From Methanolinea mesophila (GTDB lineage: Archaea > Halobacteriota > Methanomicrobia > Methanomicrobiales > Methanospirillaceae): a stretch of DNA of 64,000 nucleotides. Shown in pieces: positions 33,295 through 44,969 of the stretch. The DNA lies in contig NZ_JAGGKR010000001.1 in assembly GCF_017873855.1 (NCBI RefSeq), positions 434,001 through 498,000 on the forward strand, in the 5' to 3' direction. The translations under genes and the position numbers were made by a program. The number at the start of each line of letters is the position of its first letter. Position 1 is the stretch's first letter. The notes under the pieces were generated by a model, which had not been told where the DNA came from, searched no databases, and saw only the letters and a program-made list of their open reading frames with translations.

Positions 33295-34473
33295 TCACAA
33301 ATACCAACAGAGAGGGTCGTCCCCGCCTATCTGCCCCGTCTCGTGATATGCCCTTACCCTGCACCCTCCTCCACAGGTGTCGACCGAGGGACAGCCCCTG
33401 CATTTTCCGGTAAGGATATTCGCATTGTTCCTGAATATACCGAGAACGGGATTCTCCTCGTCCCGCCACAAGGTGCTGAACGGTCGTTCGCGGACGTTCC
33501 CGATCAGAAAACCCTCCTCCTGGGCAAACTGGCAGGGATAGACATTCCCCAGGTGATCGATGTTGGCCACCCGCCGGCCCGCACTGCACCCGGCCCCCAT
33601 GCACCTGGCGAGAGTCCGGGCATGTCCACTCTCACCTTCATTGTCCTCATCCATTCTTTGCAGGATATGGACCAGATCCTGGGGAGCGTCGACGGTGAGA
33701 ATCTCCATCTCGCCCGGCTCGAGCATCCTGGCCCATAGGTACAGCAGCTCGAGCGCCGACTTCGCCTCGCCGGGGGTGAGTTGCGAGCCGTTCGCAAGTT
33801 CCCTTCCCCTTCCGCTGGGGACGAGCCAATAGAGGCAGAACCGCGGGACACCAAGGTCCCTGGCCATGCGGAGTACTTCCTCGAGCCCGGAAACGTTCTC
33901 CCTTGTCGCGGTGAACCGTATCCCGCACTTCAGGTCCGCGTCCAGGCAGTTCCGGATCCCCTGCACGGCCCGGTCGAAACTTCCCGGGACATTCCTCTGC
34001 CGGTCGTGGACCTCCGGCCCGGGCCCGTCGATGGATACGCCCGCATACTCGATACCGGTCTCTTTCAGCCGGGCCGCCACCCGGGGAGTGATCAGGGTGC
34101 CGTTGGTGCTCAGGGCCAGTTTGATCCCCTTCGCTCTGGCATGTCCGGCAAGCTCCCAGAAATCGTCCCGCAGGAGAGGTTCGCCCCCCGAGAGGAGGAT
34201 GAGGGGGACCCCCATACCGGCGAGGTCGTCGATCACGTGCATCGCCTCATTTGTCCCAAGTTCGAGCGCGGTGCCCGCCCTCGGACCAGAGGAGTTGTAA
34301 CAGTGGAGGCAGGAGAGATTGCACCGGGTGGTGAGGTTCCAGAACACCACCGGGGCATCCACCTTCGAAAATGCGAGATACCGGGAGGGGATCTCCCCGA
34401 AGGGTGCCGAACGGTGTTTGATCACCTCGCTCACTGTACCGCTCCCGTGGATCATCTGCGTTATCCGGTTCAT
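33295..34473 (-). CDS. ahbC: AhbC: radical SAM enzyme of the siroheme-to-heme b pathway
   Basis: 392 residues. Radical SAM motif Cys51-Cys55-Cys58 (CNLSCLHC), and a C-terminal SPASM-like Cys cluster (GNVYPCQF, CRGCPSVDTCGGGCR) for an auxiliary cluster. The pattern fits AhbC, which removes acetate side chains of 12,18-didecarboxysiroheme to give iron-coproporphyrin III. Identification rests on the operon, which has all four Ahb activities, and on motifs; NirJ for heme d1 is a close relative. It is the last gene of the heme operon, overlapping the gene before it by 4 nt. Confidence 0.85.
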   Translation of the reverse strand: MNRITQMIHGSGTVSEVIKHRSAPFGEIPSRYLAFSKVDAPVVFWNLTTRCNLSCLHCYNSSGPRAGTALELGTNEAMHVIDDLAGMGVPLILLSGGEPLLRDDFWELAGHARAKGIKLALSTNGTLITPRVAARLKETGIEYAGVSIDGPGPEVHDRQRNVPGSFDRAVQGIRNCLDADLKCGIRFTATRENVSGLEEVLRMARDLGVPRFCLYWLVPSGRGRELANGSQLTPGEAKSALELLYLWARMLEPGEMEILTVDAPQDLVHILQRMDEDNEGESGHARTLARCMGAGCSAGRRVANIDHLGNVYPCQFAQEEGFLIGNVRERPFSTLWRDEENPVLGIFRNNANILTGKCRGCPSVDTCGGGCRVRAYHETGQIGGDDPLCWYL

Positions 34474-34955
34474 TCCTGCTCCTTTCTGTTCCGGAGACTC
34501 CCGGTAGGCGATCTCTTGTACTCAGCCCCGCTGAACAGCACCAGGTAGGTATCTATTCCCGTGTCGGCCGCGATTTCCGCGACCTCGTTGCAGAGATCCT
34601 CTCTTCGCCGCGAATGATGGACGGTATAGAGCTCATAATCCCAGCGACCCGGGACGGGTCTCCGGCGGTAGCAGTGAGTAACTCCGGGAAACTCCGCCAC
34701 CCTTGCACCGAGCGACGACACGTCTGCCTGGTGAACATCCCATGCAACCAGCGCATTTGCAGTGATCCCGGCCTTTCGCTGGTCGATCCTCGCCCGGAAC
34801 CTCCGGATCACTCCCTGTGTGCGAAGGATCTGCAGTCTCCGGATGACCTCCGATTCCGGGATACCCGTTCTCCTTCCGATCTCCCTGTAGGGATGATCCG
34901 AGAGCGGGATCCCCCCCTCGATCTCCATCAATAGCATCCTGTCCGTGTTATCCAT
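34470..34955 (-). CDS. ahbB: AhbB-type siroheme decarboxylase subunit
   Basis: 161 residues from ATG 34955; the frame extends to 34988 but ATG 34955 overlaps the preceding stop by 8 nt. Lrp/AsnC-like fold: N-terminal winged helix (IGRRTGIPESEVIRRLQIL) and C-terminal ferredoxin-like domain with THCYRRRPVPGRWDYELYTV, the signature seen in NirG/H and AhbB. With AhbA it decarboxylates siroheme at C12 and C18. The A/B labels follow this motif and may be exchanged. It lies between ahbA and ahbC in the operon. Confidence 0.82.
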   Translation of the reverse strand: MDNTDRMLLMEIEGGIPLSDHPYREIGRRTGIPESEVIRRLQILRTQGVIRRFRARIDQRKAGITANALVAWDVHQADVSSLGARVAEFPGVTHCYRRRPVPGRWDYELYTVHHSRRREDLCNEVAEIAADTGIDTYLVLFSGAEYKRSPTGSLRNRKEQE

Positions 34956-35436
34956 GTTGCTCGTCTCCGTCGAACCTGAACCGCACATCTACCTTGTACC
35001 GGTCGAGAGTGACCAGGTTGAGCACCTTTTCGTCGGGTAGCCCGGTCTTCGCGATGATCTCCCCCACCAGCCTGACGCATTCGTCCTCGTCCCGGGTGCT
35101 GAGCGTGAACCATACGTTGTAGTCGTGCTCCCGCTGGTAATTATGGGAGACCTGGGGATATTCGTTGATTATCGTCACCACCCGGGGAATATCGCATGCA
35201 GGCACCTGCATTGCCACGAGGGTCGAATACCGGAGTCCAATCTTCCCGGTCTCGAGAATGGGGGAGATGCTCCGGATTATTCCGCGGGACTGGAGATCCC
35301 GGACCCTGGAGAGCACTTCGCTGCCGGGCAGTCCGAGTCTCCCGCCGAGCGCATCCCATGGTGACGGGATAAGGGGGAATTCCTCCTGGAGCAGGTCGAG
35401 AACCTTCAGGTCGACCGGATCAGGGAATTGTTTCAT
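34948..35436 (-). CDS. ahbA: AhbA-type siroheme decarboxylase subunit
   Basis: 162 residues. N-terminal winged helix (LGGRLGLPGSEVLSRVRDLQ) and a C-terminal domain with SHNYQREHDYNVWFTL, the motif of the NirD/L and AhbA group. It is expected to form a heterodimer with the next gene product and decarboxylate siroheme to 12,18-didecarboxysiroheme. Starts overlap the ahbD stop by 4 nt. AhbA-like proteins look like Lrp regulators, but the strict neighbourhood with two heme radical SAM enzymes favours the enzyme over a regulator. Confidence 0.82.
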   Translation of the reverse strand: MKQFPDPVDLKVLDLLQEEFPLIPSPWDALGGRLGLPGSEVLSRVRDLQSRGIIRSISPILETGKIGLRYSTLVAMQVPACDIPRVVTIINEYPQVSHNYQREHDYNVWFTLSTRDEDECVRLVGEIIAKTGLPDEKVLNLVTLDRYKVDVRFRFDGDEQHG

Positions 35437-36533
35437 GATATCGGCCCCTTTTCGTCACCCGGAATATACGGGCACCAGGGCTCCTCGTCGAGATAGTGAT
35501 CCCCGGAAAGGGATGATCCATGTGGGGTGATCCGGCCGCTATTATTCCACAAGCCGTAGGCCCGTGCCCTGCATCCCCCGCAAAGACGCCTGTACTCGCA
35601 CCTTCCACATTTCCCCCGGAGCCTCGTGAAATCCCTGAGATCCCGGAGTATCTCTGACCGGTACCATATCTCCCTGAAAGGCGTCGAAAGGATATTGCCG
35701 CAGCTGATCGGAAGATACGGGCATGGAGTGACGTCTCCGGTCGGCGTGATCCGGCAATAACTCTTCCCGGCGATGCATCCTCTCCCCCATTCTTCAAGCG
35801 GAAGTCCCATCTTCCGCGCGATCCGGATGAACTGCGGGGCACACGTGGGTCGGATGTGCACACCTGGCGCATTGATCGCGAGCACCTCGCGGATCATCGT
35901 TTCATACATTGCGGGAGTAACGTCCGTCATGGTCCCCCCCCTTCCGGTCGGCACCAGGAAGAAGACCTGGAAATCAGTGACTCCGAGGTTCCTCCCCATA
36001 GATATGATATCATGGATCTCCCGGAAGTTCTCCCAGGTGACGGTAGTATGGATCTGGACTCCAAGCCCCGCTCTGACCGAACCCCTGACTGCCTCGACCG
36101 CTTTCCCGAAGGCGCCCTCAACCCCGCGGAACCCGTCGTGAACTTCGGGCGAGCAGGAATCCAGGCTGATTGCTATCTTTTTCAACCCGGCCCGACGAAG
36201 CTTGGCTGCCATATCTTCGTCGACGAGGTACCCGCAGCTGCCCATTACCATTCGAAGACCTCGTCCGGTTCCGAACCTTATGATCTCGAAGATATCTTCT
36301 CTCATCGTAGGTTCCCCCCCGCTCAGGATTACCACAGGACGCGAGAGAGATATTATCCGTTCAATCACCTCTTCCGCTTCGGTCGTGGAGAGTTCTCCCT
36401 GAACGGGGTCTCCTGCAGAGATATAACAATGCGGGCATTTCAGCATGCACCTCGTGGTAAGATTCCATGAAATTATGCGGGGCGCTTCAGGGGGTTGTCC
36501 TAATTCCACGGGACCATCATAACCGGGATGCAT
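35433..36533 (-). CDS. ahbD: AhbD: heme b synthase (radical SAM)
   Basis: 366 residues. Radical SAM Cys29-Cys33-Cys36 (CMLKCPHC) and a SPASM-like C-terminus (CGRCEYRRLCGGCRARAYG, plus WCPY at the end). AhbD oxidatively decarboxylates two propionates of iron-coproporphyrin III to vinyl groups, yielding heme b. AhbC and AhbD are homologous; this one is assigned D because its C-terminus and its position before ahbA match known archaeal clusters, though exchange is possible. The start overlaps the end of the permease gene by 17 nt. Confidence 0.82.
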   Translation of the reverse strand: MHPGYDGPVELGQPPEAPRIISWNLTTRCMLKCPHCYISAGDPVQGELSTTEAEEVIERIISLSRPVVILSGGEPTMREDIFEIIRFGTGRGLRMVMGSCGYLVDEDMAAKLRRAGLKKIAISLDSCSPEVHDGFRGVEGAFGKAVEAVRGSVRAGLGVQIHTTVTWENFREIHDIISMGRNLGVTDFQVFFLVPTGRGGTMTDVTPAMYETMIREVLAINAPGVHIRPTCAPQFIRIARKMGLPLEEWGRGCIAGKSYCRITPTGDVTPCPYLPISCGNILSTPFREIWYRSEILRDLRDFTRLRGKCGRCEYRRLCGGCRARAYGLWNNSGRITPHGSSLSGDHYLDEEPWCPYIPGDEKGPIS

Positions 36534-37116
36534 ACATCACCACTCCCAGGTATGCTATCCCTACAACTACAAACGGGATAATCCCTGTCACGGTTAATTC
36601 GGCGGCTCCTATCACATACCCCATCGGGAAAAGCGCTCCTACCGGGTTCTGGGTTATCCCAAGGAGGACCAGAGGGAGCGTAACGAGTATTGCGAAGAGA
36701 TGGACGCTCCCCAGGGTCCTGGCGACAAGCCCGACTAATGTGCCACTAATCGCCGCGAGAATAAGGGAGAGTTCGGCGAAGGGAATGATCAGCGCGCCTT
36801 CGAAGAATGCACCGGCAAGCATCGCAGGCAGAAACTGGGCAGTATAGAGCAGCACGTAATTTGCAGTATATGCCGAAAAAATCTCATTCTTCGGTCGCTC
36901 GCTTACCACAAGACGGCGGAACATCCCGCTTAGTCTCAGTTTCACAAGATTGATCGCCGTTCCGGCGACCACTACGAAGATGAGCAGCACTGTGAGAACC
37001 AGCCCGGAATATCCCCATAACCCTGCCACCAGGACCGCGGCTGCCGGGACGATCATCCTCCCCGCCAATCGCAGGGGATGGCCAGTGTACTCTTTCATCA
37101 GCGGGGTCCACATCAT
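36517..37116 (-). CDS. ABC-type permease subunit of the heme operon
   Basis: 199 residues, polytopic with about five to six helices (about 24-55, 80-105, 108-150, 155-175, 178-198). It overlaps the ATPase gene by 4 nt and the heme synthase gene by 17 nt. The pairing of ATPase and small permease suggests an ABC-2-type exporter, possibly for heme or a heme precursor. It is smaller than most ABC-2 permeases and no characteristic cytochrome c maturation (CcmB/C) motif such as WWD is visible. Function is inferred from context. Confidence 0.75.
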   Translation of the reverse strand: MMWTPLMKEYTGHPLRLAGRMIVPAAAVLVAGLWGYSGLVLTVLLIFVVVAGTAINLVKLRLSGMFRRLVVSERPKNEIFSAYTANYVLLYTAQFLPAMLAGAFFEGALIIPFAELSLILAAISGTLVGLVARTLGSVHLFAILVTLPLVLLGITQNPVGALFPMGYVIGAAELTVTGIIPFVVVGIAYLGVVMYASRL

Positions 37117-38078
37117 CGCTTTTCGAACCTCGTTCTGGCTTCATCTACTACCGATACGGTGATCCGCGAATAGCCTTTATCCCGGGCATATTTTTCCACA
37201 AGTTTCCTTACCATCGGCCGGACGAATGCCGGAGCCCGGGAGACCTTTTCCTCTGCATCGCGGGTCCAGAACTCGTCTGTTGCCCCGGGATCACCGAATA
37301 CCTCGATGGTGCGTGGTACGCCGAACGGGAGCATCTTGGCAATAAGCGGGGGAAGATCCTCGATCCGTTCCAGGTGCTCGGTGAAAACCTGATCCCCGGT
37401 CGAGATCGTGACCGGGATGAGATCCTGCTCAAGCTCGGTGACGGAGCCGACCTCCTTCAGTCCTTCCCCGGTCAGGTGAAAAATCCGGTCTCCGTGGCGG
37501 ATTTCACTTATCCTGTTCGTCCCGTAGAGAACCGCGGCCCCCTCCCGGGCCCGTTCCCCGGCAAGCGAGAAGAAACGGGTTCTTGTATCGGAATCAAGTC
37601 CCAGTGACGGTTCGTCATACAGGAGGACCGGCTTTCCGCTTACAAGGGATTCGGCGAGCATGAGCTTGCGCTTCATCCCCAGGGAATAGCTCCCGGCAGG
37701 ACCCGAGGGGTCCAGGTCAAGGATCTTGAAAATCCGGTCGGAATCGTCCAGTTTCGTCAGGGCGTATATTTTTTTGAAAAATTCGAGATTGTCCCATCCG
37801 TTCACGTTCTCGAAATGGGAATTTTCATCGAAAACCGGAAAAATCCTGGCCCTGACGGTCTCCCGTTCGCGGTCCCCGTCGGCTCCGAGGATCAGGAAAC
37901 GTCCGCCCGAGGGGCGGCAGGTCGTTGAAAGGACGTTGAATAATGTCGATTTTCCCGTACCATTCTTTCCATAGATACAGCAGATCTCCCCGGGGTCAAC
38001 GGTGAAGGTGAGATCCCTGACTCCCTTCCCGCCGGGATACGTGTAAGCCAGGCTTTCCACGGCCACCGCAGGGATCAT
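37113..38078 (-). CDS. ABC transporter ATPase fused to a PCP_red-like domain
   Basis: 321 residues from ATG 38078, whose ATGA overlaps the upstream stop. ABC ATPase domain about 1-215: Walker A GKNGTGKST (37-45), signature YSLGMKRK (131-138), Walker B VLLYDEPS (151-158). A connector (about 216-265) leads to residues 268-321, which match the small PCP_red domain from the C-terminus of the light-independent protochlorophyllide reductase subunit (FW..DAEEKVSRAPAFVRPM, then EKYARDKGYSRITV). This domain on an ABC ATPase is not known to me. It may sense or bind a tetrapyrrole or iron-sulfur ligand to gate transport. Confidence 0.82.
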   Translation of the reverse strand: MIPAVAVESLAYTYPGGKGVRDLTFTVDPGEICCIYGKNGTGKSTLFNVLSTTCRPSGGRFLILGADGDRERETVRARIFPVFDENSHFENVNGWDNLEFFKKIYALTKLDDSDRIFKILDLDPSGPAGSYSLGMKRKLMLAESLVSGKPVLLYDEPSLGLDSDTRTRFFSLAGERAREGAAVLYGTNRISEIRHGDRIFHLTGEGLKEVGSVTELEQDLIPVTISTGDQVFTEHLERIEDLPPLIAKMLPFGVPRTIEVFGDPGATDEFWTRDAEEKVSRAPAFVRPMVRKLVEKYARDKGYSRITVSVVDEARTRFEKR

Positions 38079-39280
38079 ATCCCGAATTTCTCCCTCGCGC
38101 CGTCCATTATCTCGGGAGTGATGATAAAAACCCCAAGCTCGCGTGCGTACCGTTCTATCGCAAGCACCGCCATACTCCGGGCGAAGGGAGGTACATTCTC
38201 GATACGGGCACTGGCCTCCTCGGTCCACTCGAGTGACCCGCCTGCGGGGCAGGGAACGGAAGCAGGCTCACCTGAGGGGATCTTCCCCGGGATTTGTGCC
38301 CATCCACCGACTACCAGGACGTTCGCACCGGTATTCCTCACCACCCTTTCAGCTGTTGATCCGATATCGGAATAGCTGCCCTTGTGCATACCGGAACGGC
38401 TCACTACCACAAGGTCATACCCGCCCTGCTCCGCTTCACGGCAGATCTCGTTCCAGGGCACGCCTTCTTTCCGCACCGGATTCACCCGCGAACATCCCGA
38501 GTCGCGAGCGACCTCACACCCCCGGTCCAGATATTTCCGGTAAAGTTCGGCGAGGCTCCGATCGATTATGGTGTTGTGGAGCGTTTCCTGCTCGTTGAAC
38601 CTGAACACCTTGCCCGCCTCCTCGGAAAGGACCCGGGAGAGGAGGGAGAATACCGTGCGGTGCAACTGGGGGTTGAAGACCGATATGAGCGTGACCTCCC
38701 CGTTCATCATCGATGCGAGTCCTGAGCCTGTCTTCACGGCTCCGAAGGACTCCTCGCTCCCGTCAATCCCGACAAGAACCTTCCGGGGTATCCTGTCGTT
38801 CCTGATTATCAGGAGGTCGCACCCCGCGTGGCGGAGCACGGATGAAGCGGTTCCGCCGAGCGTGCGCGTCCCCTCTACCGTGCCAAGCCCTTGTGCACCC
38901 ATGATGAAGAGGTCATGACTTCTGGTCGCTTCGATCAGGATATCCGCGTTTTTTCCGTCTTTCAGGACCTCTCTCAACGGTATCTTCTCACCGGCACACT
39001 TCTCCGAGAGTCCCTTCATGTATTCAAGAGAGATTATCTCCAGCCCCCGTTCGATCAGGACCGAATGGATCCTTCTCTGGTAGTCCAGCTGGTCCTCATC
39101 CTGGTAGCGGGGGGGGAGGTAGGGCTCCAGTGCCCCGAATCTCGCGCGATGAAATCTTCCCGAATAGACATGATATCCCGAAACAGCCGCATGGAACTGT
39201 TTTGCAATCTCCACCCCGATCGTTTCGGAAGCATGAGAGCACGGGGATTTGTCCACTGCGATCGCGATATCACTGTACAT
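38075..39280 (-). CDS. Tandem universal-stress-protein with C-terminal PCP_red-like domain
   Basis: 401 residues from ATG 39280. Two UspA-type nucleotide-binding domains (about 1-162 and 164-328), with the pattern GAQGLG..GGTASSVLRH in the first and SRSGM..GSTAERVVRN in the second. A linker and a PCP_red-like domain follow (about 351-401: EWTEEASARIENVPPFARSM, then ERYARELGVFIITP). The same tail is found on the next gene product. This is the first gene of the seven-gene heme operon, overlapping the ATPase gene by 4 nt. Possible role: regulator or carrier linking nucleotide state to heme handling; inference only. Confidence 0.82.
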   Translation of the reverse strand: MYSDIAIAVDKSPCSHASETIGVEIAKQFHAAVSGYHVYSGRFHRARFGALEPYLPPRYQDEDQLDYQRRIHSVLIERGLEIISLEYMKGLSEKCAGEKIPLREVLKDGKNADILIEATRSHDLFIMGAQGLGTVEGTRTLGGTASSVLRHAGCDLLIIRNDRIPRKVLVGIDGSEESFGAVKTGSGLASMMNGEVTLISVFNPQLHRTVFSLLSRVLSEEAGKVFRFNEQETLHNTIIDRSLAELYRKYLDRGCEVARDSGCSRVNPVRKEGVPWNEICREAEQGGYDLVVVSRSGMHKGSYSDIGSTAERVVRNTGANVLVVGGWAQIPGKIPSGEPASVPCPAGGSLEWTEEASARIENVPPFARSMAVLAIERYARELGVFIITPEIMDGAREKFGI

Positions 39281-40903: not shown

Positions 40904-42460
40904 ATGAAACAGATATACGGCTATCTCATCGCATTGGCCATATTCCTTATAATACTCGTGTTCTTTATCGTTCCCCAGCAGGGGGGACTGATATCGTCCA
41001 CTCAGTTGAATGCCGATGCGCTGGGGCAGGTACCTTCGCAATACAACGAGACATTGCCTATCCAGGAGGTGGATATTTCAAGTTCCGGACGGTCAATCTT
41101 CATCGCGTTCGTGATGCTTGCCCACGTCCTGTTTGCCAACCTTCACCTGGGAGGGGCCTGGGTGGCTGCCGGGACCGAATCGATCTACCTTAAAACCAAA
41201 AAAACCAGATATAAACGACTGGCGCGTTCGATTACGCTGTTCAACGTAATCCTCTTCTCTGCGGGAGCGACCTTCGCCGTCGGAGGGGTCTTATTCTTCA
41301 TCTCGCTCTTTCCCACGTTCGCCTCGGAGGCATTCCACATCTACTGGTGGCCACTGCTCGCGGAGGCCATCACCTTCGGGCTGGAAATTTTTTTCCTTTA
41401 TACCTACTGGTTCGCGTGGGATAAGATAAGCAACAAATGGCACCAGTTCCTTGGTTACGCATATGCGGTAGACGTATTCGCCCAGACCCTTCTGATCAAC
41501 ACGCTTGCGTCCGGGATGCTCACCCCCGGCGGGACCGCCATCGACTGGAACACCTCCGCGGGTCTTTTTACCATGCCCTTAAGTGTTCTCTCCGGCTGGT
41601 GGTTCAATGCCACGACCTGGATATTACAGTTCCATCGGCTTGCGGCGGCGGTGTCATACTTCGGGTTCCTGCTCGCGATGCTCGCGATGTTCCATTACCT
41701 TGACCGGAAGGACAAACCATCAAAGACCTATTGGGATCTTGTGGGGTCATACGGGCTCAGTTTCGGATTGCTGGGATTGATCTTCCAGCCATTGCTCGGG
41801 TTGATCTACATGAGCACGATCTTTCACGCGCAGCCCGGTGCCTTCGCAAGCATCATGCTTGCAAATCGTGCGTGGGAGATGGTCCTGATGGTGGGACTGC
41901 TCTCGTTCCTCTTTATCGCGTCGATCCTCTACCTCTACGACCGAAAGGAACGGATACTCACCGAAGTCGGCAACGAGCGCCTTCACCGGTTGTTCAAGCT
42001 CTTCATCGTGATCGCGTCCGTGGCCGGGTTTATCCTCGTCCAGCCCTATACCATGGATTTCGGGGTGAATCCTCTGGGATACATGAGCTACAAGCTCGTA
42101 GCGCTCTTCGTCCTCATCGTAATCGGGGCAATCGTCCTGGTTATTGACCTGGTGATGCTTCGGGAACCTACCAAAATGGAATGGGGCAACCTCTCGTCGG
42201 TTTCACGCAGCTATGCACTGATTGCCGGCGTCCTGGGCATGTGGATCGTGATTGTCATGGGCTTTGTCCGCGAATCGGCACGGTCTCCATGGACGATATA
42301 TGGGATTGTCCCGGTCCCGGGAGGGCAGGCATACCCTACCCCAATCCCCGTGGCGCAGATATTCGGGGTCTGGTTCATCATCACCGTGATGACCATCGCC
42401 ATATTCTGGTTCACCTCGAGGGTCACCGCCGAACATCCTGAAGAAGCGGAGAAGATCTAG
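40904..42460 (+). CDS. Cytochrome bd subunit I homologue (CydA-like) without CydB
   Basis: 518 residues, about nine to ten membrane helices. Compared with E. coli CydA from memory: AHVLFANLHLGG carries His74 at the place of the heme b595 ligand His19. PLLAEAITFGLEIFF with Glu154/Glu161 corresponds to the E99/E107 region. ILQFHRLAAAV gives His244 (His186, heme b558), RAWEMVLMVG a Met at the Met393 position, and RESARSPWTIYG the conserved GRQPW segment. An additional N-terminal helix (8-23) and the near absence of the quinol-binding Q-loop are unusual. No cydB is nearby; a 51-aa single-helix gene follows 12 nt later. Probably a heme b membrane protein for electron transfer or gas chemistry. Confidence 0.85.
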   Translation: MKQIYGYLIALAIFLIILVFFIVPQQGGLISSTQLNADALGQVPSQYNETLPIQEVDISSSGRSIFIAFVMLAHVLFANLHLGGAWVAAGTESIYLKTKKTRYKRLARSITLFNVILFSAGATFAVGGVLFFISLFPTFASEAFHIYWWPLLAEAITFGLEIFFLYTYWFAWDKISNKWHQFLGYAYAVDVFAQTLLINTLASGMLTPGGTAIDWNTSAGLFTMPLSVLSGWWFNATTWILQFHRLAAAVSYFGFLLAMLAMFHYLDRKDKPSKTYWDLVGSYGLSFGLLGLIFQPLLGLIYMSTIFHAQPGAFASIMLANRAWEMVLMVGLLSFLFIASILYLYDRKERILTEVGNERLHRLFKLFIVIASVAGFILVQPYTMDFGVNPLGYMSYKLVALFVLIVIGAIVLVIDLVMLREPTKMEWGNLSSVSRSYALIAGVLGMWIVIVMGFVRESARSPWTIYGIVPVPGGQAYPTPIPVAQIFGVWFIITVMTIAIFWFTSRVTAEHPEEAEKI

Positions 42461-42848: not shown

Positions 42849-44798
42849 TTATTCTACTCTCATGGGGTATACCCCCGGACTGCAGGTGTCCGGAAGGTCT
42901 ACCTCGTTCAGGCGGTTCGAGAGGTCATTGAGGTCGGTCATGATGATCGAACCTGAAGAGACCGTATAAAGCACGTTCCCGATATACAACGACCTCTTCA
43001 CCGTATCAGGGGAATACCAGTAGGAATATGCATCTGCGTTCATCTGGTGCGTGATTGTACCTTTTTTGATGAAGCCGATGTCCGGGTCCACCCCAAAGAC
43101 ATATGCCCCCTGCCAGAGCCCGTGACCATACGGGCTCCCCTTCAGGTCGGATACGTAGGTCTTTTGTATCTCCGAAACCGGGATTACCAGCAGGTCTTTT
43201 CCTTTGTCGAAGAGGAAGGCCTTATGGTCCTGAAGGGCCGCGGAATCGGTCCCTGAATCGCCGATCTCCACCTTATCCACCATCACCGGATTATTCACGT
43301 CGGAGACGTCGAAAAGAGCCAGTTTCAGTCCGCCGACAGACACCCCGCCCCAATCGTTCGATTCCGTCTCTTTTCCGAGACCGATGATATGATTTTCGTC
43401 ATAGGGATGCAGGTAGTCGGAATATCCGGGGATCTTCAGTTTTCCAAGGATGCCCGGATGTGCCGGGTCGGAGAGATCGATAACGAAGAACGGGTCGATT
43501 CTCTTGAATGTCACCATATAGAGCCGATCGCCGAGGAACCGGGTGGAGTAGATCTTTTCATCTAGTGCGATATATTCAAGGCTTCCTACCGTGTGCATGG
43601 CACCGTCCAGGATGTAGACGCTGTTGTACTGCAGGGACCTGGAGGAGCTCCATTCGTTCACCGTGGTGGCGACCCGCAGGTTCCCGCCGTATTCGTCGAG
43701 GGAGAACTGGTTAAGGAGGTGGCCCGGTACATCCCCGGTAGATTGGTACTTGACGATTCCATCCATGATTGAGAAACGGTGGATGATGGTCTCTTCCCTC
43801 GGGGGTTCGTACATGGGACTTGTACTTCCCAGGGGTTCTGCCATAACCTGCCGCGGTGCGTAGTTCTGGTTTACATAGGCGACGTACAGGTTATCCGGCG
43901 AGCAGTAAAGCGTGGAGGAATAACCTGAGAGATAGGTCTCTGCCCTGACCGGTGAATCGTCGTTCACCTTGAAGGAAGAGATGGTATTGTACACGAAATT
44001 CCCAGGAATGGTCCGGAACCGGTAGAGATCCGGAACCATGACCGGTTCGTCTCCCACCTTCACCTCGGGGTACAGGGGTTCGTCCAGCACCCAGGGGACC
44101 GACTCGCTGGTAATCGCGTACACGTAATCCCCGACCATGCGCGAATCGTAGTAGTTCCCACTTATTGCAATATCCCGGGCCAGACGGGGGTGCGAGCGGT
44201 CGGATATATCGTAGACATACGCATGGGTGATCTCCCTTCCGTAGGGAACGGGTGCAACGCTTGCGGCAGGTTTGATATAGGTCTGTTCCCAGCCGGAGGC
44301 AAAGATAGTAAGCCTGTTACCCTCCAGGAACATCTCCCCCGGATTTCCCTCGATACGGGTTGTAGAGAGGGTCTTTGCGCTCTCAGCCGGATATGCGTCG
44401 ATGATGGCCAGTTCCCCGCAGGAGAGAATATAAATATATCTCCCGTCGTTCTTCACGAAATCCGCTTCGTCCACGCCTGCAACCTGGATGTTCGTTGTGG
44501 AATAATCGGAAGACACCACCGGGTAGGCTGCCGGAACAGCCATCTTCTCCATACCGGTTCCTGCCATCCCGATACTGCCGTCCAGCGTCGAAGACTGGAC
44601 GTACATCGGACTCCCTCCGGTTCCCCGGTCACGGTCTGACTGGAGATATAGCTTCAGGTCCTTTGGGTCTGTAATTCTGATGATTTCACTGGTATTCGTA
44701 CCTTCGATATCGCCTCCGGTGACAAGTGCGGCACCGATTACGGCAGCAATGACGGCCACACCTACGAGAATTATCGAGATAATATAACGGTCGGACAT
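42849..44798 (-). CDS. Membrane-anchored beta-propeller protein
   Basis: 649 residues from ATG 44798 (MSDRYIISIIL), preceded by GGGAGTGG; a start at 44810 is possible. One N-terminal membrane helix (about 6-28) anchors an extracytoplasmic domain. From about residue 100 the sequence matches the archaeal/bacterial secreted beta-propeller family distantly related to WD40 (COG4880-like; TNIQVAGVDEADFVKNDGRY, then repeated YVYDISD, FVIDLSDPAHP and LFDVSDVNNP blades). Such proteins probably bind surface ligands or partners. It is a single-gene unit; no enzyme motif is visible. Confidence 0.85.
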   Translation of the reverse strand: MSDRYIISIILVGVAVIAAVIGAALVTGGDIEGTNTSEIIRITDPKDLKLYLQSDRDRGTGGSPMYVQSSTLDGSIGMAGTGMEKMAVPAAYPVVSSDYSTTNIQVAGVDEADFVKNDGRYIYILSCGELAIIDAYPAESAKTLSTTRIEGNPGEMFLEGNRLTIFASGWEQTYIKPAASVAPVPYGREITHAYVYDISDRSHPRLARDIAISGNYYDSRMVGDYVYAITSESVPWVLDEPLYPEVKVGDEPVMVPDLYRFRTIPGNFVYNTISSFKVNDDSPVRAETYLSGYSSTLYCSPDNLYVAYVNQNYAPRQVMAEPLGSTSPMYEPPREETIIHRFSIMDGIVKYQSTGDVPGHLLNQFSLDEYGGNLRVATTVNEWSSSRSLQYNSVYILDGAMHTVGSLEYIALDEKIYSTRFLGDRLYMVTFKRIDPFFVIDLSDPAHPGILGKLKIPGYSDYLHPYDENHIIGLGKETESNDWGGVSVGGLKLALFDVSDVNNPVMVDKVEIGDSGTDSAALQDHKAFLFDKGKDLLVIPVSEIQKTYVSDLKGSPYGHGLWQGAYVFGVDPDIGFIKKGTITHQMNADAYSYWYSPDTVKRSLYIGNVLYTVSSGSIIMTDLNDLSNRLNEVDLPDTCSPGVYPMRVE

Positions 44799-44969
44799 TT
44801 CCACTCCCATCTCTATGAGAGGCTGGGACCGGAGAAGTTAATTATTTTGTCTTAACTGCGAGAATTTTTGTAATTATGAATTGAACAGCCTTGTCGTTAA
44901 TGAGTTCAGGCGAGGGGCTTGATATTTTGTAATAAATTGTACCAGCGCTGATTTTGCAGAAAAATGTAA

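Follow-up and report, generated by a model that had tools for sequence, protein, structure and literature searches.

PCP_red domains on a tandem universal stress protein and a neighbouring ABC ATPase in a methanogen: a possible docking module in an operon with ahb-like genes

Two neighbouring minus-strand genes of Methanolinea mesophila, located in a stretch of 64,000 nucleotides (contig NZ_JAGGKR010000001.1, positions 434,001 to 498,000; hereafter the window), encode proteins that both end in a PCP_red domain, the C-terminal domain of BchB/ChlB. The first protein (38075..39280, 401 aa) is a tandem universal stress protein (Usp) with two Usp domains ahead of the tail (PF00582, PF08369), and the second (37113..38078, 321 aa) is an ABC ATPase with an ABC-2/DrrA-like nucleotide-binding domain (PF00005, 76.4 bits) and the same kind of tail. 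It is tentatively proposed, with rather less than even confidence, that PCP_red docks the tandem Usp to an ABC transporter serving either haem supply or the assembly of a CydA-type oxygen reductase. The tail itself is a known domain in a new setting, and the gene cluster around it may matter more than the tails.

A sequence-only reading of the window had pointed out a pattern common to the two C-termini and had taken it for PCP_red. Both motifs were found as quoted there, in the ABC ATPase as WTRDAEEKVSRAPAFVR (residues 271-287) and EKYARDKGYSRIT (residues 295-307), and in the Usp protein as WTEEASARIENVPPFAR (residues 352-368) and ERYARELGVFIIT (residues 376-388). A six-frame reading of the window returned the first motif at these two sites only, and the residue ranges assigned to the tails (268-321 in the ATPase and 351-401 in the Usp protein) fit the starts ATG 38078 and ATG 39280. 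In a hidden Markov model (HMM) search with Pfam, both tails matched PF08369 above its curated cut-off of 32.5 bits, the ATPase tail (37134..37268, minus strand; G000:C1:471134-471268) with 63.1 bits (E 2.5e-17) and the Usp tail (38093..38227, minus strand; G000:C1:472093-472227) with 48.9 bits (E 6.5e-13), and these were the only PF08369 matches in the whole genome. Used as the sole query against PDB sequences, the ATPase tail matched BchB/ChlB C-termini together with the isolated PCP_red domains 2KRU and 2L09, and a profile built from 18 archaeal tails, those of the window among them, found the same group at E 5e-14 to 5e-9.

The AlphaFold2 model of the ATPase tail comprises three helices and a short bridge (mean pLDDT 85), and the tail in the model of the Usp protein shows the same order of elements, in keeping with the shared fold expected from the motifs. 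The best structural match of the ATPase tail model was 2KRU, a solved PCP_red domain (Foldseek probability 1.00, root-mean-square deviation (rmsd) 0.8 over 49 columns), and a second comparison (VIA) gave Z 8.4 with 56 aligned positions and an rmsd of 2.8. A chance resemblance is ruled out by the HMM result, the PDB sequence matches and the fold together. Of the two results that the sequence-only reading had listed as refuting it, a lack of PCP_red matches and modelled tails of unlike fold, neither was obtained. The window tails thus belong to the same family, and have the same predicted three-helix fold, as PCP_red of BchB/ChlB (PF08369; 2KRU, 2YNM chain D), but they sit on a Usp and an ABC ATPase. 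No nitrogenase-like catalytic domain was recognised before either tail, Pfam placing only ABC_tran or Usp domains there, and BchB models matched the Usp tail only, at 29-30 bits against a cut-off of about 500. In Asr4154 of Nostoc (2L09), which was matched by the profile at E 5e-14, the domain is likewise not part of BchB; however, Asr4154 is a separate small stand-alone protein, whereas the window tails are fused. A further similarity of the ATPase tail model is to the lid of RuvB-type AAA+ proteins (Z up to 7.7), and a histone-like resemblance was seen as well. Judged on the models, the lid resemblance is that of a common small helical fold and says nothing on function, and neither likeness was taken as a guide to function. 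Fold-match lists, the only source on this point, suggested a PCP_red domain that is ordered in 2YNM, though perhaps not in the remaining BchB structures.

The distribution of the domain was surveyed in 199 genomes of the class to which the window organism belongs. PCP_red was found in 11 of these, with 13 domains in total, and a query made of the Usp protein without its tail recovered exactly the same 11 genomes, in which all 12 Usp copies carry the tail. Eleven of the 12 Usp loci could be read further, and in every one the next transporter genes encode an ABC ATPase and a permease (at L024 the contig ends within the permease gene, and at L021, the locus that could not be followed, before both genes). 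The tail is constant on the Usp protein but rare on the ATPase, being present there only in the window genome and in one Methanomicrobiales metagenome-assembled genome (MAG; L014); the other nine loci with a readable ATPase C-terminus have no PCP_red on the ATPase. The seven fully aligned relative ATPases are 27-28% identical to that of the window. The two window tails share 32% identity, whereas the ATPase tail shares 58% with its L014 counterpart on the ATPase and 46% with the tail of the L019 Usp, and with these values recent copying of one tail into the other gene is unsupported. In the alignment of 18 tails W, A and P are the sole invariant residues, with G and T nearly so; His, Cys, Met and Tyr are not among them, and there is thus no conserved haem-ligand residue. 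To our knowledge, the function of PCP_red is unsettled even in DPOR, and its occurrence on a Usp protein, and in a few genomes also on the adjoining transporter motor, offers a simple non-chlorophyll system for testing the role of the domain.

The two tailed proteins are encoded at the head of a seven-gene operon on the minus strand, in the order Usp-PCP_red, ABC ATPase-PCP_red, ABC-2-like permease and AhbD-, AhbA-, AhbB- and AhbC-like proteins, with overlaps between successive genes of 4, 4, 17, 4, 41 and 4 bases. The permease partner (36517..37116, 199 aa) is hydrophobic and of ABC-2 type, with a PF12698 match of 14.1 bits that lies below the cut-off; in L029 the gene product that occupies the equivalent place in the operon exceeds the PF01061 cut-off (27.7 against 26.9 bits). 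AhbA to AhbD form the pathway from siroheme to haem. In the window, the AhbD/NirJ2-like radical SAM-SPASM protein (35433..36533, minus strand) scores 333 bits with TIGR04055 and 325 bits with TIGR04545, both under the 500-bit cut-off, and the AhbA-like siroheme decarboxylase subunit (34948..35436, minus strand) scores 125.6 bits with NF040708 (cut-off 140). The siroheme decarboxylase subunit AhbB (34470..34988, minus strand) passes NF040707 with 159.8 bits (cut-off 125), and the AhbC/NirJ1-like radical SAM-SPASM protein (33295..34473, minus strand) reaches 312 bits with TIGR04054 and 302 bits with TIGR04546, under the 650-bit cut-offs. The AhbC- and AhbD-like proteins score equally well or slightly better as NirJ1 and NirJ2, likewise below cut-off. 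McrA is present in the genome and the organism is therefore a methanogen.

Divergent from the operon lies a gene for a CydA-like subunit of a bd-family oxidase (40904..42460, plus strand, 518 aa; PF01654 92.8 bits, cut-off 26.2), preceded on the plus strand by an amino-acid permease gene. The conserved residues H74, E154, E161, H244, E457 and R460 are present in the protein, and the first four align with conserved residues of 5doq. None of the 12 genomes tested, the window genome among them, gave a match to CydB (PF02322), while the control search with the same model gave a match in 10 of 14 control genomes. CydA (PF01654) occurs in 10 of the 199 genomes and nine of the ten also carry PCP_red (Fisher's exact p 4.9e-13, with related genomes treated as independent); in the tenth, G146, which has CydA without PCP_red, the contig ends inside ahbD. 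AhbB above cut-off is present in 77 of the 199 genomes, in 10 of the 11 with PCP_red and in all 10 with CydA. At the level of the locus, ahb genes stand beside the unit in four of the 12 Usp loci (window, L020, L027 and L029) and a CydA-like gene in six (window, L019, L020, L021, L025 and L027), several of the remaining loci being short contigs. CydAA'-type bd-family oxidases of archaea have reportedly been described (Murali et al. 2021), and the proteins found here are like them in being CydA-like without CydB. At L020 two CydA-like genes stand in tandem (L020:2994-6422), the second without the two conserved Glu, a CydA/CydA'-like arrangement. The present proteins differ in occurring in what are apparently Methanomicrobiales methanogens, and in one genus (g17) a cupredoxin gene lies directly upstream.

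The link to tetrapyrroles that the sequence-only reading had proposed is therefore borne out at the level of the operon, where ahbD, A, B and C follow directly with overlapping frames and a bd-family oxidase co-occurs, but not as direct recruitment of the tails to a tetrapyrrole or an iron-sulfur complex, given that no potential ligand residue (His, Cys, Met, Tyr) is constant among the tails. Since the operon runs on into ahbD, A, B and C and a CydB-less oxidase is encoded beside it, the most likely role would be that of a module that makes haem and carries it, or a related compound, through the membrane, so supplying or assembling the oxidase. The PCP_red tails would be a docking module, holding a cytosolic tandem Usp to an assembly that handles tetrapyrroles at the membrane and has as its core the ABC ATPase and the permease encoded directly after the Usp. 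Docking is favoured over tetrapyrrole binding because the tail is constant on the Usp protein and rare on the ATPase, and because no ligand residue is conserved. In the window genome and the related MAG, the ATPase has gained a PCP_red of its own.

The Usp protein (PF00582 107.5 bits, in two stretches) would report nucleotide or stress state, and is probably nucleotide-binding. In its predicted structure it is similar to known tandem Usps, for example 3ab8 with ATP. The ATP-binding Usp motif is G-2x-G-9x-G(S/T), and the second Usp domain of the window protein reads SRSG-MHKGSYSDI-GS, with the first Gly of the motif replaced, where relatives have GRYG, GRHG or GRWG followed by GS. The motifs of the ATPase are intact (Walker A GKNGTGKS, signature YSLGM, Walker B VLLYDE).

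Several observations weigh against a haem-supplying module. An ABC ATPase with a membrane partner encoded together with haem synthesis and a bd-type oxidase recalls the haem- or thiol-linked exporters CcmAB and CydDC, and possibly does the same job, but the window ATPase fails the CcmA cut-off (TIGR01189, 70.1 against 131.6 bits) and those of CydC and CydD (NCBIfam, 61.5 against 329 and 59.9 against 435 bits), and no CcmB match was obtained for the ATPase and permease pair. Membership in CcmAB or CydDC was rejected on these scores, and we know of no Usp or PCP_red in those systems. AhbA, AhbC and AhbD also fall below their curated cut-offs (125.6 of 140, 302 of 650 and 325 of 500 bits), so that, as judged from sequence, it is not certain that haem b is the end product of the Ahb-like pathway in the window. 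In G004, a genome of 99% completeness, Usp-PCP_red, the ATPase and the permease are present without either AhbB above cut-off or CydA; another, G133, carries PCP_red without CydA; and in G113 and G158 the ahb genes are on another contig. Finally, kinship inflates the Fisher p value, as several g17 genomes share the unit by descent.

It could be that the ABC pair exports a non-haem substrate and is kept with the Usp protein in an island for defence against oxygen or stress, the ahb genes being merely co-regulated. The best models for the ATPase are indeed of other kinds, the multidrug-type DrrA (117 bits) and the ABC of PQQ-dependent alcohol dehydrogenase (93.5 bits), both below cut-off. The composition of G004 fits such an exporter too, as do the cupredoxin and GSDH-fasciclin genes that are frequent neighbours of the unit. 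Against this reading stand the closely packed operon that includes ahbDABC, both in the window and at L029, and the strong co-occurrence with CydA, and we consider a non-haem exporter somewhat unlikely. Less probable again is that the tail itself binds a tetrapyrrole, either haem or an Ahb intermediate, with the Usp and the ATPase acting as haem carriers or sensors. The domain is native to DPOR, a tetrapyrrole enzyme, and here it heads a haem operon, but the tails have no conserved ligand residue, the fold match is to a small helical, AAA+ lid-like domain and to no known haem fold, and around archaeal PCP_red-CGGC proteins, whose neighbours include a prismane protein and a COX1-like fragment, no haem synthesis genes were recognised among the proteins scanned. 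That a homotypic contact of the two tails tethers the Usp protein to the ATPase is the least probable of these possibilities. Both neighbours are tailed in the window and in L014 but, the ATPase tail being rare, binding between tails cannot be the general function and was rejected as such on the nine loci that pair a tailed Usp with a tail-less ATPase.

A small frame of about 62 residues, here called component X, lies between the Usp and ATPase genes in seven relatives (for example L020:10121-10306, L022:8583-8768 and L026:1274-1459), and in three further relatives it forms, by fusion, the end of the Usp-PCP_red protein (for example L019:9668-9868 and L029:9675-9884). The fusion in some loci suggests that X works with Usp-PCP_red. 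An alignment of nine of the ten sequences (L023 was omitted as a repeat of L022) shows an invariant F-H-[RQ]-H-I, and the match to CDC48_2 is weak (20.8-23.4 bits, cut-off 22.4); we presume a resemblance to ribosomal protein S17. Component X is absent at the window locus and at L014, the two genomes with a tailed ATPase, and the idea that the ATPase tail stands in for X is no more than a guess based on these two.

In all six g17 genomes with CydA, the gene immediately upstream of the cydA-like one encodes a cupredoxin, and a cupredoxin gene was also found after ahbC in L029 and between the Usp and ATPase genes in L014. Cupredoxin-domain proteins in or beside the cluster are encoded at L020:2192-2917, L060:2774-3361, L014:808-1749 and L029:14863-15357. 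In genus g17 only, the cupredoxin may feed the oxidase. A cupredoxin partner within the operon of the window is ruled out, the single cupredoxin of this genome being on another contig. A large GSDH (sorbosone dehydrogenase-like) and fasciclin protein is encoded upstream of the Usp gene in several relatives (L020:6547-8820, L022:4972-7281), though not at the window locus. GSDH occurs in 62 and cupredoxin in 109 of the 199 genomes, and therefore the position of these genes is informative while their mere presence is not.

The Usp-PCP_red architecture is already in print as an automatic annotation, at least in excerpts of PMC12159084, where a USP with LI-POR_suB-like_C is listed in Methanomicrobiaceae and a role in methanogenesis is suggested. 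The architecture is apparently the same as in the window, but the excerpted text contains no operon, ABC transporter, haem genes or oxidase, and the term 'ABC transporter' is absent from the main text of that paper. No publication on an ABC-PCP_red fusion or on the operon was found in a search judged by title and start of abstract, which left most subscription papers outside it. Excerpts of PMC8351635 give AhbABCD in 0 of 32 and cytochrome bd in 0 of 32 Methanomicrobiales genomes, and in those of PMC7618691 the full haem pathway among methanogens is confined to Methanosarcinales. The window thus places ahbDABC-like genes and a CydA-type oxidase together in a methanogen of an order surveyed as lacking both, and if the oxidase works it would bear on the oxygen survival of hydrogen-using methanogens. 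A wider proposal, which we regard as unlikely, is that PCP_red serves for docking in tetrapyrrole machines generally and that the operon encodes a dedicated haem-moving and assembly apparatus (Usp adaptor, ABC transporter and Ahb proteins) for a bd-type oxygen reductase that lacks CydB, in methanogens that according to published reports have no haem synthesis or cytochromes, the oxidase being fed in one genus by a secreted cupredoxin and not by quinol.

Some further observations were made on the domain and on the surroundings of the oxidase gene. In bacteria, one plasmid search for PCP_red contexts returned seven records, all of them bchB. In more distant archaea PCP_red is fused ahead of a CGGC domain (L054:9554-10069, L057:10008-10505 and L058:9949-10467), with a prismane (hybrid-cluster) protein as neighbour in L054 and a COX1-like protein of 166 residues in L058. 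A weak PCP_red match of 19 bits, below the cut-off, was seen at the C-terminus of a flavin-reductase-like protein (L059:1312-2166). In the window, a Beta_propel protein (PF09826, 653 aa, 538 bits) is encoded at 42849-44810, 3' of the cydA-like gene and convergent with it.

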